Positions 9,566-16,365 of a DNA stretch of 20,400 nt are shown in pieces. The number at the start of each line of letters is the position of its first letter. The first letter of the stretch is position 1. The translations under genes and the position numbers were made by a program. Below the pieces are notes generated by a model. It was not told the origin of the DNA and searched no databases. It saw only the letters and a program-made list of their open reading frames with translations. Source of the DNA: a virus; IMG/VR virus record IMGVR_UViG_3300047284_000455, positions 1 to 20,400 of that record, one strand, 5' to 3'.

Positions 9566-9577
9566 GTTTTACCCTAC
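9566..9577 (-). promoter_or_regulatory. Recurrent motif GTAGGGTAAAAC, copy B (candidate phage promoter)
   Basis: The minus strand reads GTAGGGTAAAAC, one A shorter than copies A and C, 72 bases before the decoration gene start. Its TAG is the stop codon of the restored frame of the upstream minor head gene (CGG TAG). In copy C the TAG is likewise the stop of the portal gene. This shared arrangement supports both the motif and the restored frame. Confidence 0.5.
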
Positions 9578-9840
9578 CGGTATTCAATAAAACACCGGCA
9601 ACGGTCATAACACCGGCAGCCTTTACCCGGCATTGGTAATTCACCAATGGGGGTCCAGCCCTGGGTGTCATAGTCGCGACAATCTTTACAAGTTTTCTTG
9701 TCGTCTTTTGCTACCCTGCGCATCTCCTTAAATCCCTGGTCTTGGGCAACCATGTATTGCCCCAGGTTGTAAAAGGCGAATGTAGGAGTAGAGCCGGCCA
9801 GCTTCTTCCTTGTGCCCGTCGTTGAGAAGCTTCTTCAACA
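9574..9840 (-). pseudogene. Out-of-frame C-terminal part of the minor head protein (Cys-rich domain)
   Basis: Two further frames continue the minor head gene after the frame read from 10310 loses protein-like character. From about 9841 to 9785 one frame gives VLKKLLNDGHKEEAGRLYSY. From about 9780 to the TAG at 9574-9576 another gives FAFYNLGQYMVAQDQGFKEM, then DDKKTCKDCRDYDTQGWTP and IGELPMPGKGCRCYDRCRC, ending FIEYR. The C-x2-C ... GW-x-PIG-x-LP-x-PG-x2-C-x-C-x3-C-x-C pattern is a metal-binding-like tail that I associate with Mu gpF-like and minor head proteins. An ATG at 9753 could alone start a 59-residue protein with this domain, preceded by a GGGG-type weak ribosome site. Whether this is a separate gene, a broken end or a sequencing effect cannot be settled here. 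Confidence 0.6.
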
Positions 9841-10310
9841 CCCTCCTCTTCGGGATTGATGCCTTCGATTTCGTCAACGCCAAGCTCGATTGCTCCGGGA
9901 ATTGCGCCCAGGAGGTTGTAGTCTGCGAAGTCTACGGTTTGATCTCCAAGGCGGAGTACACCAGAGTCAATGTATTCTTTAGTCTCTGCTAAAAACTTTG
10001 TGAGAGGTGGGAGCATGTCGCCCACGATGATGGGCCAGCATTTTTCCAACTTCCGATCAGTTGCGTCGTCTTTGATACCAAGGATGCACGCAGCAAGGGC
10101 AGATACCAGGGTTTTGTCCAGAACTGTTCGTTCGTACTCTTCCCAACGCATCAACTTGTCACGCAATCCCTTCACGAGGCCAAGGGACTCTGCCTTCATC
10201 CGCTCTTCCAGACGGGGCTGCTCTTTGTATTTTCGAGCGAGAGTTTTGGCCTGTTCCATGTAGTCGGATCTCCGCTTGGTAGCCATTCCGACGGCGCTCA
10301 GGAGGTCCAT
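9711..10310 (-). CDS. Minor head/morphogenesis protein, frame broken near the 3' end
   Basis: As read, the frame gives 199 residues from MDLLSAVGMATKRRSDYMEQ. The first 155 or so are a convincing, largely helical protein (KTLARKYKEQPRLEERMKAE; TLVSALAACILGIKDDATD; KLEKCWPIIVGDMLPPLTKF), ending about ELGVDEIEGINPEEE. The remaining 40 (RAQGRSWPALLLHSPFTTWG and on) look like out-of-frame translation. A Cys-rich domain lies in another frame downstream (9574-9840). Removing one G of the GGG at 9841-9843 and one base near 9781 would give a 244-residue protein ending at 9574. Position between protease and decoration/capsid genes and the Cys-rich tail suggest a Mu gpF-like minor head protein. The start overlaps the end of HE2 by 13 bases, and GAGGAA lies six bases before the ATG. 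The ATG nine codons in (MATKRRSD) is a possible ancestral start. Confidence 0.75.
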   Translation of the reverse strand: MDLLSAVGMATKRRSDYMEQAKTLARKYKEQPRLEERMKAESLGLVKGLRDKLMRWEEYERTVLDKTLVSALAACILGIKDDATDRKLEKCWPIIVGDMLPPLTKFLAETKEYIDSGVLRLGDQTVDFADYNLLGAIPGAIELGVDEIEGINPEEEGVEEASQRRAQGRSWPALLLHSPFTTWGNTWLPKTRDLRRCAG

Positions 10311-10969: not shown

Positions 10970-13654
10970 TCAGGAAGAATACATCGTTTTCTTGAGTGCT
11001 TCCACATAGTCAGAGCACTCGCCGGATTCAACCATCTTCAGAGCCTTTGCGTGGGGATCCAGGTCCTCTTCGGCATACTGGAAGGTACCACCGGCAACCT
11101 CGCCGAAGGAAACCATCGGAGGCAGCTTGCTCAGCAGGGTGAGCAGTTTGGTGGCAGCAGTTTCGCCCTCGGAGAATTCCAGAGTGCCAAACTCCAGGCC
11201 TTCCACGTAGGAGAGGAGCTCTTGCTCGGGCATGATGCCGTCGGTCAGACGACCTTCGGTGTACATGTGACCGATTGCCTCAGACAGTTGGTGCTGGCGG
11301 AAGCTCATTTTTTCCATACGGTTGCGCTTCTCAAGCTCAGCGTACTGACGCTTGAGGTTGGCCAGCTCTTCAGCCATCTCACGGATGCCCATGCCCACGG
11401 GAGCAGCCTGGCTCATGGAGCCCATGCCACCGTACTCCATGCCGCAATGGTCAACGGAGTATTCGTTGTAGGACTCTTCGCCCTCATCCACACCGCTGTC
11501 GCCTTCACCTTCACCTGCCTCGTAGGTAGAACCAAAGCCGGTCTTGGTGTAAGGATCCTTCTTCTCACCGTGCTCCTCAGCATAGACGCCACCAGACTTT
11601 TTGGTGATTTCGGCGGGATCGGTCACAGTGTCCATGGCGCCAGGGGTCAACTGCTTGCTCTTGCTAGCCTTGCCCTCAGCATAGGCACCGCCAGGACCCA
11701 CGATTTCAGCGGGATCGTCAACTTCGTCCATAGCGCCAGGAGTCAGTTGCTTGCCGGTGGCTTTCTTTTCGCCCTTGTAGGACTCAGCGAAGGCACCACT
11801 GGGACCCACGATCTCGGCAGGATCGTCGGTGGTGTCCATAGCACCAGGAGTCAGTTGCTTGTCCTTGGAAGGCTTGCCAGCGCCTTCACCGTGCTCAACG
11901 GTCTTGGCGTCGGTCATGCCCTTCTTGGCTGTGGTCACACCGTCATCGCCGGTCATTTCGTCGGCCTGGGGCTCAGCGAAAGCGGGGATGGGGCCGCCCT
12001 TCAGGGCTTCACGACCTTGGCTGGAGGTTTGACGTAGAACGCGCATGTTCTTGTCGCTCATGACGTTTTGAGTCTGAACGGCGAACACCTCGTTGTCAGG
12101 CATTTCCTCGGTTTCCACGGGGATCTTGGTGGCGGTTTCCTTACGACCGTAGGGGTCGGTGCCAGTGGACTCCTCGGGGCGGCTGCCTTCGGGATAGTCT
12201 TCTTTACCAGCGTCATACTGGTCGTTGTTGGTCACTTGGTCATAGCCATCTTCCTGGCCAGCCCAGCGACCGGTGTCACCTTTGCCGAACTCACCATTCT
12301 TGGCAGTGTGCATGCGGTCTTTATCTTGCTCACCGTTTTCGGCGGTGTGCATGCGGTCACGATCCTGCTCACCGCTCTTGGCAGTCTGCATACGGCCAGT
12401 GCGGGCATCTGCACCGGCTTTACCGGTCTTCATGCGGTCAACATAGCCGTCAGAATCGGAACGAGCGGTGTCATAACGACCCTCGTCACCACCTTCCTCT
12501 TCTTTCTTGGTTCCGAAGTGCACTTTACCGCCTTTGGATGTCTTGTAAGACACTTCGTCATACTCGAGCTCAGCGTGATCGGCAGATCCAGGACCACCAT
12601 CTCCACCATGACGCTTCATGACACCGGAGTCAGTCATGTCATCTTCGGAGTGCTTGGCTTCCTTGATGAGCTTGTCTTCTTCTTTGCCAAAGCGTTTTAC
12701 TTCCTTGGCCTCTTCATCTTTGCCTTCTTTCTTCAAGCGCTTGGCTTCGAAGGCACGATCAGCAGCAGCCTTGCGCTCATCGGTAGATTCTTTGTGTGCT
12801 TCTTCGTAGACGTTTTCTACTACTTGCATCACTTGGCCGTGGGCACCCTTTTCGTGCTTCCGGCTGATTTTTCCTTTTTCCATAAATTCCTCTTCCGGAA
12901 ATTGAGTTTCGAGGTCAGCCGTCTGCTGAGAAATTTCAGTTCCTTCGCGACCCACGTGTTTGCTGGTTTCTTTGAATTGGGGAGCATCTGGGTTGGCCAT
13001 TTGAGCGGCCTCGGGTTGTTCCGTCACGGATGACGTAGCCACCTCTTCCAGTTGCTCGGTCGGTTGTGATTGTTGGTTGCTTTGGAGATCTTTTACCGCA
13101 CTCGATACATCCTGACGGACTTCATCGAGTTTCTCCCGGAGCATTTCGAGAGGACTCTTTTCCACAATGAGCGTGGGTCCGAGTTCCTCATCAAAAATGT
13201 CAGAGGGGGCGAGAGCCACGGCGAAGTCAAAGACCCCGTCCGATTCAGCGAATGTGAAGGGCTCCAAACCCTTCACTGCCGGAGGCGAGGCCCCCAGCAA
13301 GGCCAGGTGTCGGGCGCTCCACTTCCCCTTGTGTGGGTTGATGGCAGAATCTGGGGAGTAGAAAGAGATTGAAACCTTGCGGTAATGCCCGTCTTTCACC
13401 AGATCCTTGGCTGTGTCGGTAAAGGCCACGTCGGCATACAAATTGCCCCCTTGCTGACTGAATCCTTTGATCCAGCCATAGGCAGGGAGGCTGTCATTGT
13501 CGCCTGCGTGACCAATCACCAGGGGAGCTTCATGGATTGAGGGATCGTAAGTTTTGACTACCTGCTCAAGGTCCTTTTCAGAGAAATGCCTCTGGACACC
13601 TTGAGCGGAGGTCTGATCACCTGCTTTGAAGACGTGAATACGTTTTTGAAACAC
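10970..13654 (-). CDS. Prohead protease/scaffold, Mu gpI-type, with long repetitive acidic middle (894 aa)
   Basis: Residues 1-130 fit the Mu gpI-like prohead protease: an early strand (RIHVFKAG), APLVIGHAGDNDSLPAYGWI at 43-62 (the conserved 'GH ... GWI' motif), LYADVAFTD, YRKVSISFYSP near 91-101, and HLALLGASPPAVKGLEPF at about 116-133. These proteins cleave scaffold and capsid parts in the prohead. The C-terminal part has a coiled coil near 755-785 (EELANLKRQYAELEKRNRME) and a helical end with SGECSDYVEALKKTMYSS, as expected for a scaffold. About 500 Lys/Glu/Asp/Gly-rich residues lie between, with two repeat families. Mu gpI is only about 360 residues. The start is a GTG directly preceded by an in-frame TAA, so no longer form is possible, and no clear ribosome site is seen. 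A well-placed internal start (Met258, ATG at 12883 after GAGGAA) could give a separate scaffold. Confidence 0.85.
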   Translation of the reverse strand: MFQKRIHVFKAGDQTSAQGVQRHFSEKDLEQVVKTYDPSIHEAPLVIGHAGDNDSLPAYGWIKGFSQQGGNLYADVAFTDTAKDLVKDGHYRKVSISFYSPDSAINPHKGKWSARHLALLGASPPAVKGLEPFTFAESDGVFDFAVALAPSDIFDEELGPTLIVEKSPLEMLREKLDEVRQDVSSAVKDLQSNQQSQPTEQLEEVATSSVTEQPEAAQMANPDAPQFKETSKHVGREGTEISQQTADLETQFPEEEFMEKGKISRKHEKGAHGQVMQVVENVYEEAHKESTDERKAAADRAFEAKRLKKEGKDEEAKEVKRFGKEEDKLIKEAKHSEDDMTDSGVMKRHGGDGGPGSADHAELEYDEVSYKTSKGGKVHFGTKKEEEGGDEGRYDTARSDSDGYVDRMKTGKAGADARTGRMQTAKSGEQDRDRMHTAENGEQDKDRMHTAKNGEFGKGDTGRWAGQEDGYDQVTNNDQYDAGKEDYPEGSRPEESTGTDPYGRKETATKIPVETEEMPDNEVFAVQTQNVMSDKNMRVLRQTSSQGREALKGGPIPAFAEPQADEMTGDDGVTTAKKGMTDAKTVEHGEGAGKPSKDKQLTPGAMDTTDDPAEIVGPSGAFAESYKGEKKATGKQLTPGAMDEVDDPAEIVGPGGAYAEGKASKSKQLTPGAMDTVTDPAEITKKSGGVYAEEHGEKKDPYTKTGFGSTYEAGEGEGDSGVDEGEESYNEYSVDHCGMEYGGMGSMSQAAPVGMGIREMAEELANLKRQYAELEKRNRMEKMSFRQHQLSEAIGHMYTEGRLTDGIMPEQELLSYVEGLEFGTLEFSEGETAATKLLTLLSKLPPMVSFGEVAGGTFQYAEEDLDPHAKALKMVESGECSDYVEALKKTMYSS
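11560..11860 (-). repeat. Three 32-36-residue tandem repeats within the protease/scaffold gene
   Basis: The units begin at 11860, 11752 and 11656 with KQLTPGAMD, continue with (D/T)DPAEI(V/T) and end with (G/S)G(A/V)(F/Y)AE. Spacings of 108 and 96 bases keep frame. DNA identity between copies is high in the KQLTPGAMD part. Repeat number could vary between relatives by slippage or recombination. The repeated (F/Y)AE ends, also seen as FAES and FAEP elsewhere in the protein, could be processing sites for the maturation protease, which is inference. Confidence 0.8.
12281..12439 (-). repeat. Four 13-residue repeats (DRMHTAKNGEQDK-type) within the protease/scaffold gene
   Basis: Units of 39 bases, with consensus (D/G)RM(H/Q/K)T(A/G)(K/E)(N/S/A)G followed by EQD(R/K) in two of them. 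The Met codons lie at 12433, 12391, 12352 and 12313, so spacing is 42, 39 and 39 bases. The two central copies are almost identical at DNA level, which points to recent duplication. The repeats are charged and hydrophilic and probably form an extended linker. Confidence 0.82.
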
Positions 13655-13680: not shown

Positions 13681-13693
13681 GTTTTTACCCTAC
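13681..13693 (-). promoter_or_regulatory. Recurrent motif GTAGGGTAAAAAC, copy C (candidate phage promoter)
   Basis: Identical over 13 bases to copy A. It lies 26 bases before the GTG start of the protease gene, and its TAG is the stop codon of the portal gene. The 35-base gap between the two genes holds little else. A shorter relative (GAAGGGTAAAA) at 15950-15960 serves as the ribosome site of HE1 and may be coincidental. Confidence 0.5.
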
Positions 13694-15296: not shown

Positions 15297-15950
15297 TTAC
15301 TTACTCCTTTTGAGACGGCCTAGTGTCCAATCACCATCGGGATTGGATTTGAACTTCTTTTCCGATGTGCCGTTGTTGAACCATCGGGTTCCGAAAGAAG
15401 GAGACAACTCGCCACTCTTCCCGTACATGGGGTTGTTCTCGCCGGCTAAAGGAGCCTTAAGTCCCCTTCCGCCAAGGGTCCAGCCCTCTCCGGGACACTC
15501 CGCCTCAAGAACATAGTTCCCTTTTCCGTCGTTCCACCATCGCTTACCGTATGCAGGGTTCGTTTCCCCCGCACAGTGAGCGGTTCGACGAGCGATTACT
15601 TCCGCATCCCATACTTTACCGTAGAGGTGATGATCGGGACCACCTGTGCCCAGGGCGGACGGTGGAACTTCAGCCTTTGGGTTAAGGTTGTAGCACCACA
15701 CGGTCCCGTGATAAAAGTCCAGATAATACTGTTCCTCATTACGGGTCTCCAACTCGTCGTCCTCACTTACGATCCAGTAGAAGTTTTCAGGATCTTTACG
15801 AAGAGAGTTTTGAAAAGGGTAGTCTTCGTTGGAGTTGAGATGTCCCTTTTGCCTTTTAGTAAAGTCCGTGGTACTTCCCACGTAAAACTTCTTGTTGGTT
15901 AGATTGATCGCGGCGTAGGTAATCACTCGACAACAGCGTTGATAACTCAT
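15297..15950 (-). CDS. GIY-YIG homing endonuclease HE1 with NUMOD3-like DNA-binding modules (217 aa)
   Basis: I chose the ATG at 15950 (MSYQRCCRVITYAAINL) because GAAGGG lies four bases before it and the nuclease fold begins at once. A longer frame would run 100 bases into gp25 with unlikely sequence. GIY-YIG signatures are ITYAA (10-14), FYVGSTTD (22-29) with Arg33, and NEEQYYLDFY for the metal-binding Glu. The rest is DNA-recognition modules: PDHHLYGKVW, GETNPAYGKRWWNDG and GENNPMYGKSGE (NUMOD3-like). Two W(W/F)N(D/N)G ... GWTLGR-type units end in ECPGEGWTLGGRG and NPDGDWTLGRLKR. It lies between gp25 and the portal. A hairpin begins in the gp25 stop codon, and the last HE1 codons form the portal ribosome site, so the element is inserted with almost no disturbance. 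Confidence 0.88.
   Translation of the reverse strand: MSYQRCCRVITYAAINLTNKKFYVGSTTDFTKRQKGHLNSNEDYPFQNSLRKDPENFYWIVSEDDELETRNEEQYYLDFYHGTVWCYNLNPKAEVPPSALGTGGPDHHLYGKVWDAEVIARRTAHCAGETNPAYGKRWWNDGKGNYVLEAECPGEGWTLGGRGLKAPLAGENNPMYGKSGELSPSFGTRWFNNGTSEKKFKSNPDGDWTLGRLKRSK
15304..15309 (-). promoter_or_regulatory. Portal ribosome binding site inside the HE1 coding end
   Basis: The minus strand reads AAAAGGAGTAAGTAAAAGTG. AAGGAG lies nine bases before the portal GTG and encodes the final Arg-Ser of HE1. It supports the GTG at 15294 as the portal start. Confidence 0.65.
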
Positions 15951-15971
15951 TTTACCCTTCGCCAGTCTCTG

Positions 15972-15990
15972 TAAATCGCGAAGCGATTTA
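15972..15990 (-). other. Perfect hairpin between gp25 stop and HE1 start
   Basis: Minus-strand TAAATCGC, loop TTC, GCGATTTA: an eight-pair stem whose first three bases are the gp25 stop codon. It lies 21 bases before the HE1 ATG. No T-run follows, so it is not a simple terminator. CTTCGC of its top is also complementary to GCGAAG overlapping the HE1 ribosome site (15957-15962), which allows an alternative fold. Confidence 0.6.
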
Positions 15991-16365
15991 GTTTGCCAGG
16001 GTGAAGTTGAGGGGAGGTTGGGGTTGCCCGTTGACTGAATACTCAATGAAGACTTTGTAGACACCGTCTTCCCCCTGAGACCGCCAATCACCAGTCACTG
16101 ACAGGTCGGTCAACCCTTGCACATTTTGCAGAATGCTGTATTGAATTGCGGAGTTGATTTGACCAGGGTCGAGAACCTCCAGCACATAGTCTCCGATACC
16201 GTAATCCGCCCGCATTACCCTTTCGTAGTAGCGGGTTTCCACAACACTGCGGATTTGTTGAGTCACGGTGGCGTAGTCGGTGCTGGTTGCCAGATTGCCA
16301 TTGACCACAGTCAAAGGGTAAGTCAAACCCCGAACCGCAGGGGACAGAATCGTTGGATCACTCAT
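15988..16365 (-). CDS. Baseplate protein of the gpW/gp25 family (125 aa)
   Basis: The length and pattern fit the T4 gp25/P2 gpW family: GLTYPLTVVNGNLATSTDYA at about 13-32, the helix VTQQIRSVVETRYYERVM (about 34-51) with the conserved 'I-x-x-x-(L/V)-x-T-x-x-x-E-R-x-M/P-x-x-x-(F/Y)G' pattern continuing RADYGIGDYVLE, and a C-terminal beta hairpin (VYKVFIEYSV ... PPLNFTLAN). In contractile tails gp25 joins wedge to hub and nucleates the sheath, so lying just after the sheath gene is sensible. The ATG overlaps the previous stop (ATGA). The stop is the first codon of the hairpin at 15972-15990. Confidence 0.87.
   Translation of the reverse strand: MSDPTILSPAVRGLTYPLTVVNGNLATSTDYATVTQQIRSVVETRYYERVMRADYGIGDYVLEVLDPGQINSAIQYSILQNVQGLTDLSVTGDWRSQGEDGVYKVFIEYSVNGQPQPPLNFTLAN

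Follow-up and report, generated by a model that had tools for sequence, protein, structure and literature searches.

A single 28-nt deletion appears to interrupt the minor-head gene in a fragment of an S-CBWM1-like cyanophage

The minor-head gene in the 20.4-kb virus record analysed here (the window) is, as judged by comparison with its relatives, very probably interrupted by one 28-nt deletion confined to the window sequence, with no recoding involved (probability about 0.96). The window is a cyanophage fragment related to Synechococcus phage S-CBWM1, and its major capsid protein is 67% identical to the S-CBWM1 counterpart over the whole length. In S-CBWM1 the order is portal (gp169), peptidase (gp170), gp171, which is the minor-head homologue and is annotated as hypothetical, and major capsid (gp175); the same order is found in the window (Table 1). 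gp171 (ATW62855.1) has 40% identity to the intact form over 253 residues and belongs to the same family with a Cys-rich C-terminus, but unlike the window copy it is an intact single open reading frame with no HE2 gene in front of it. Both halves of the window copy are homologous to this family and lie in the expected gene order, portal, protease, minor-head gene and, further on, major capsid. The first-pass annotation of the window had seen no break in any other gene, which agrees with our comparison: 11 other genes which could be compared with relatives are unbroken, two of them being matched over only part of their length, the relatives' loci ending there.

Table 1. Features of the window in and around the minor-head gene.
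Feature	Position	Strand	Remarks
Portal gene	15294-13690	-	
Protease gene	13654-10970	-	
HE2, endonuclease-like gene	10906-10298	-	between protease and minor-head genes; homologues at same place
Minor-head gene	10310-9574	-	broken in window
Native 5' part, codons 1-174	9789..10310	-	in frame with start; contains the stretch proposed as a second frame
Junction of putative 28-nt deletion, as defined against the intact relatives, all of which have the block	9789..9792	-	blastn to L002 and spacing; CT microhomology leaves 2 nt of uncertainty in the breakpoint
25 foreign codons and TAG, read past junction	9711..9788	-	
Native 3' part, 67 codons and TAG, Cys-rich C-terminus	9574..9777	-	out of frame; homology to relatives
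164-aa gene	between minor-head and major capsid genes	-	
Major capsid gene	8897-7845	-	

The reading frame which begins at 10310 meets its first stop, a TAG at 9713-9711, after 199 codons. Its native 5' part shows 97% amino acid identity, over 174 of 174 residues, to locus L077, which is on the same contig as the closest match, L002, and the same frame carries on in all the intact relatives. The 3' part is up to 93% identical to 75 relatives. Its coding portion (9777-9577, followed by the TAG at 9574) contains the motifs C-x2-C ... GW-x-PIG-x-LP ... C-x-C-x3-C-x-C, and the cysteines which are invariant in the family (C217, C220, C241, C243, C247 and C249, L002 numbering) are out of frame in the window. 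The first-pass annotation had described a frame from 10310 followed by another running to the TAG at 9574 with the cysteine motifs, and had taken them for parts of one ancestral gene, since interrupted, that encoded a Cys-rich C-terminus; the layout is confirmed, and the ancestry is borne out by the intact open reading frame in relatives. As written, the gene would give a 199-residue product (174 native and 25 foreign) lacking the Cys-rich C-terminal part, and such a truncated product would probably be non-functional or impaired. The internal ATG at 9753 is no adaptation of the window sequence: relatives have a conserved methionine codon there (YMVAQD).

The 3' part was found in 75 related viral contigs and the 5' part in 76. 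In all there were 127 loci, from viral contigs and one isolate (S-CBWM1 included), giving 72 distinct gene sequences. Every locus containing the gene start has one uninterrupted reading frame, 248-254 residues long, that runs through both parts, and none is broken; relatives with a three-frame layout, or ending at 199 residues, which the first-pass annotation had said would count against its reading, are absent from the set. All the relatives thus have the single open frame of about 250 residues typical of the gp171 family and the window does not, and on this comparison the window gene belongs to the S-CBWM1-like gp171 minor-head family as a broken copy and not as a functioning member. The nearest relative, IMGVR_UViG_3300044681_001058 (L002/L077), is approximately 93% identical to the window at the DNA level around the minor-head gene; it differs in that its gene is intact and HE2 is absent. 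With the nearest relative at that distance and without HE2, and with near-identical records possibly absent from the comparison, the deletion could still be present in a sister phage closer to the window. The identical junction was not found in any other viral contig searched, a set from which near-identical records may have been omitted.

The deletion is delimited by the blastn alignment of the window to L002. Positions 9790-10283 correspond to 3960-3467, and positions 9574-9791 to 4204-3987, with DNA identities of 95% upstream of the junction and 92% downstream. The two blocks overlap by 2 nt, 28 nt of L002 are absent between them, and there are no further gaps. The spacing between the N-terminal and C-terminal parts tells the same story: it is 65 nt in the window, against 93 nt in almost every relative. 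A single loss of 28 nt would remove about nine conserved residues and at the same time shift the frame. Relative to L002, dN/dS is 0.07 upstream of the junction and 0.11 downstream; the latter value implies that the 3' part was under selection until recently, so that the break is either recent or not biological. Both halves are close to the family consensus. The change would therefore seem to be very recent, either a deletion in the phage lineage or molecule, or a fault of assembly or consensus; what the window holds is either an unremarkable broken version of a conserved structural gene or an artefact.

The choice between a real deletion and an assembly fault is about even. There is an even chance that the 28 nt were lost in the assembly or consensus of the metagenome contig and that the gene is intact in the phage. 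The deletion is present in one contig only while the structural gene is intact in 72 of 72 distinct relatives, both of its parts still look to be under purifying selection, and the other genes show no break, just as one would expect if the phage were viable. Against a fault of this kind, short-read assemblers seldom drop 28 nt in unique sequence without supporting reads, and the junction homology is only 2 nt, which is near chance (it is expected in 10% of random 28-nt deletions of the minor-head gene). Three residues in the C-terminal part, 205K, 209D and 212T, are private to the window at the threshold used, and there are none in the N-terminal part; they give a weak hint of relaxed selection past the junction, ie of a real event, and are too few to decide the matter.

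That the phage lineage, whether living or defective, recently underwent a real microdeletion and has lost or truncated the protein is given slightly under even odds. This would account for a clean single event with microhomology at its ends, and for private residues past the junction only. In SPP1 the counterpart, gp7, is not known to be strictly needed for assembling particles, so loss of the minor-head protein may be tolerated. Set against this, no relative is without the gene or its C-terminus, and a search of six longer related records found no second copy of the minor-head gene, which leaves no obvious back-up. It is improbable, judging from the sequence, that the deletion is both real and fixed in a viable lineage, one which would have given up or shortened a MuF-like protein otherwise universal in this cyanophage group, and in which the truncated 174+25-residue protein, or a C-terminal piece started separately at the ATG at 9753, is still used.

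The first-pass annotation had explained the break differently, by a middle frame at 9841-9785 and two extra bases, one at 9841-9843 and one near 9781, whose correction was to restore a 244-residue protein. A second frame is indeed open over 9841-9785, but the first frame is homologous there in all relatives. Between 9841 and 9790 their first frame reads GVEEASQRRAQGRSWPAL or close variants; that of the window is GVEEASQRRAQGRSWPAL and L002 is identical. As the relatives read straight through this stretch, the first frame must be correct down to about 9790. The middle-frame peptide, VLKKLLNDGHKEEAGRLYSY, results from translating ordinary first-frame coding sequence in the wrong frame; L002, whose gene is intact, yields VLKKLLNDEHKEEAGRL when translated in that wrong frame, which is nearly the same. 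The alternative frame is open by chance over the short stretch in most intact full-length relatives (51 of 62), and its openness therefore carries no meaning. The alignment to L002 contains the one 28-nt gap and no one-base gap. The joined 244-residue product would replace conserved sequence with an artefact, and the two one-base corrections restore no homologous protein; two insertions or base-call errors have thus next to no chance of being the explanation. Since short alternative frames may resemble protein-coding sequence, a gene that seems to span several frames should be checked against its relatives before it is put down to one-base errors or recoding. Programmed frameshifting or bypassing, which the annotation had also entertained as unusual decoding, could in principle join two pieces that are both protein-like and lie in overlapping open frames, but its probability is negligible: the relatives are single-frame throughout and none needs it, they show no conserved frame change or signal of a programmed frameshift, the codons for about nine conserved residues are no longer in the DNA at all, and, as the annotation had itself remarked, there is no canonical slippery heptamer (0 frame, junction to stop).

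HE2 overlaps the start of the minor-head gene by 13 nt (10298-10310), and inactivation linked to it had also been suggested. Homologues of HE2 lie at the same place, over the start codon, in L006, L044, L057, L068, L085, L088, L102 and L127, and in 8/8 of these carriers the minor-head gene is intact and of normal length; HE2 is for this reason judged not to be the cause of the break. Compared with HE2-free relatives, the carriers share an alteration of the first nine or so minor-head codons, a pattern that co-conversion at a homing site would be expected to leave. Upstream of the minor-head gene in L030, L031 and L042 there is a match to the N-terminal 100-126 residues of HE2 only, which suggests modular endonucleases whose C-terminal parts have been exchanged at the same locus. 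A second homing endonuclease gene, of the GIY-YIG/NUMOD3 type, is at 15297-16091, between a 125-aa gene and the portal gene, and has relatives in other contigs of the group.

The intact protein is likely to be a distant MuF-like minor head protein of the S-CBWM1 group. An AlphaFold2 model of the intact L002 protein (pLDDT 81.5) superimposes on the S-CBWM1 homologue with a TM score of 0.83. In BFVD it matches many minor capsid, MuF-like and head morphogenesis proteins, the similarity being modest (E 4e-4 to 1e-2, TM mostly 0.25-0.5). These fold matches, together with the gene order, support the assignment. With MuF-like minor head proteins of the phage Mu gpF and SPP1 gp7 kind the family shares a position near the portal and protease genes, a predicted fold and a weak profile match: the 3' part matches phrog_24776 (unknown) at 2.5e-14 and phrog_115 (minor head protein) at only 2e-4. 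It is distant from them in sequence, and the window copy is in addition truncated. Pfam gave no match for the minor-head protein, and its MuF model matched none of 57 family members at E<=0.1, the family perhaps being too distant for sequence models. Solved structures gave no significant match by sequence or by fold, and nothing bearing on the minor-head gene was found in the literature. The assignment provides a likely name for an unannotated gene family of S-CBWM1-like cyanophages.

The stop at 9574 lies inside a recurrent motif, TAGGGTAAAA, as the first-pass annotation had stated. The motif occurs on the minus strand at 13692, 9576 and 7313, before the protease, 164-aa and 186-aa genes, respectively, and in 52 of 57 distinct relatives GGGTAAAA comes just past the stop of the minor-head gene. 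Longer related records each contain 3-5 exact copies of TAGGGTAAAA, all on one strand, and no copy of the reversed control; S-CBWM1 contains no TAGGGTAAAA. The motif may be a promoter of the phage or a regulatory element of some other kind. Within the protease gene, several degenerate repeat arrays, with units of 39 and about 100 nt, lie at 11575-12440.
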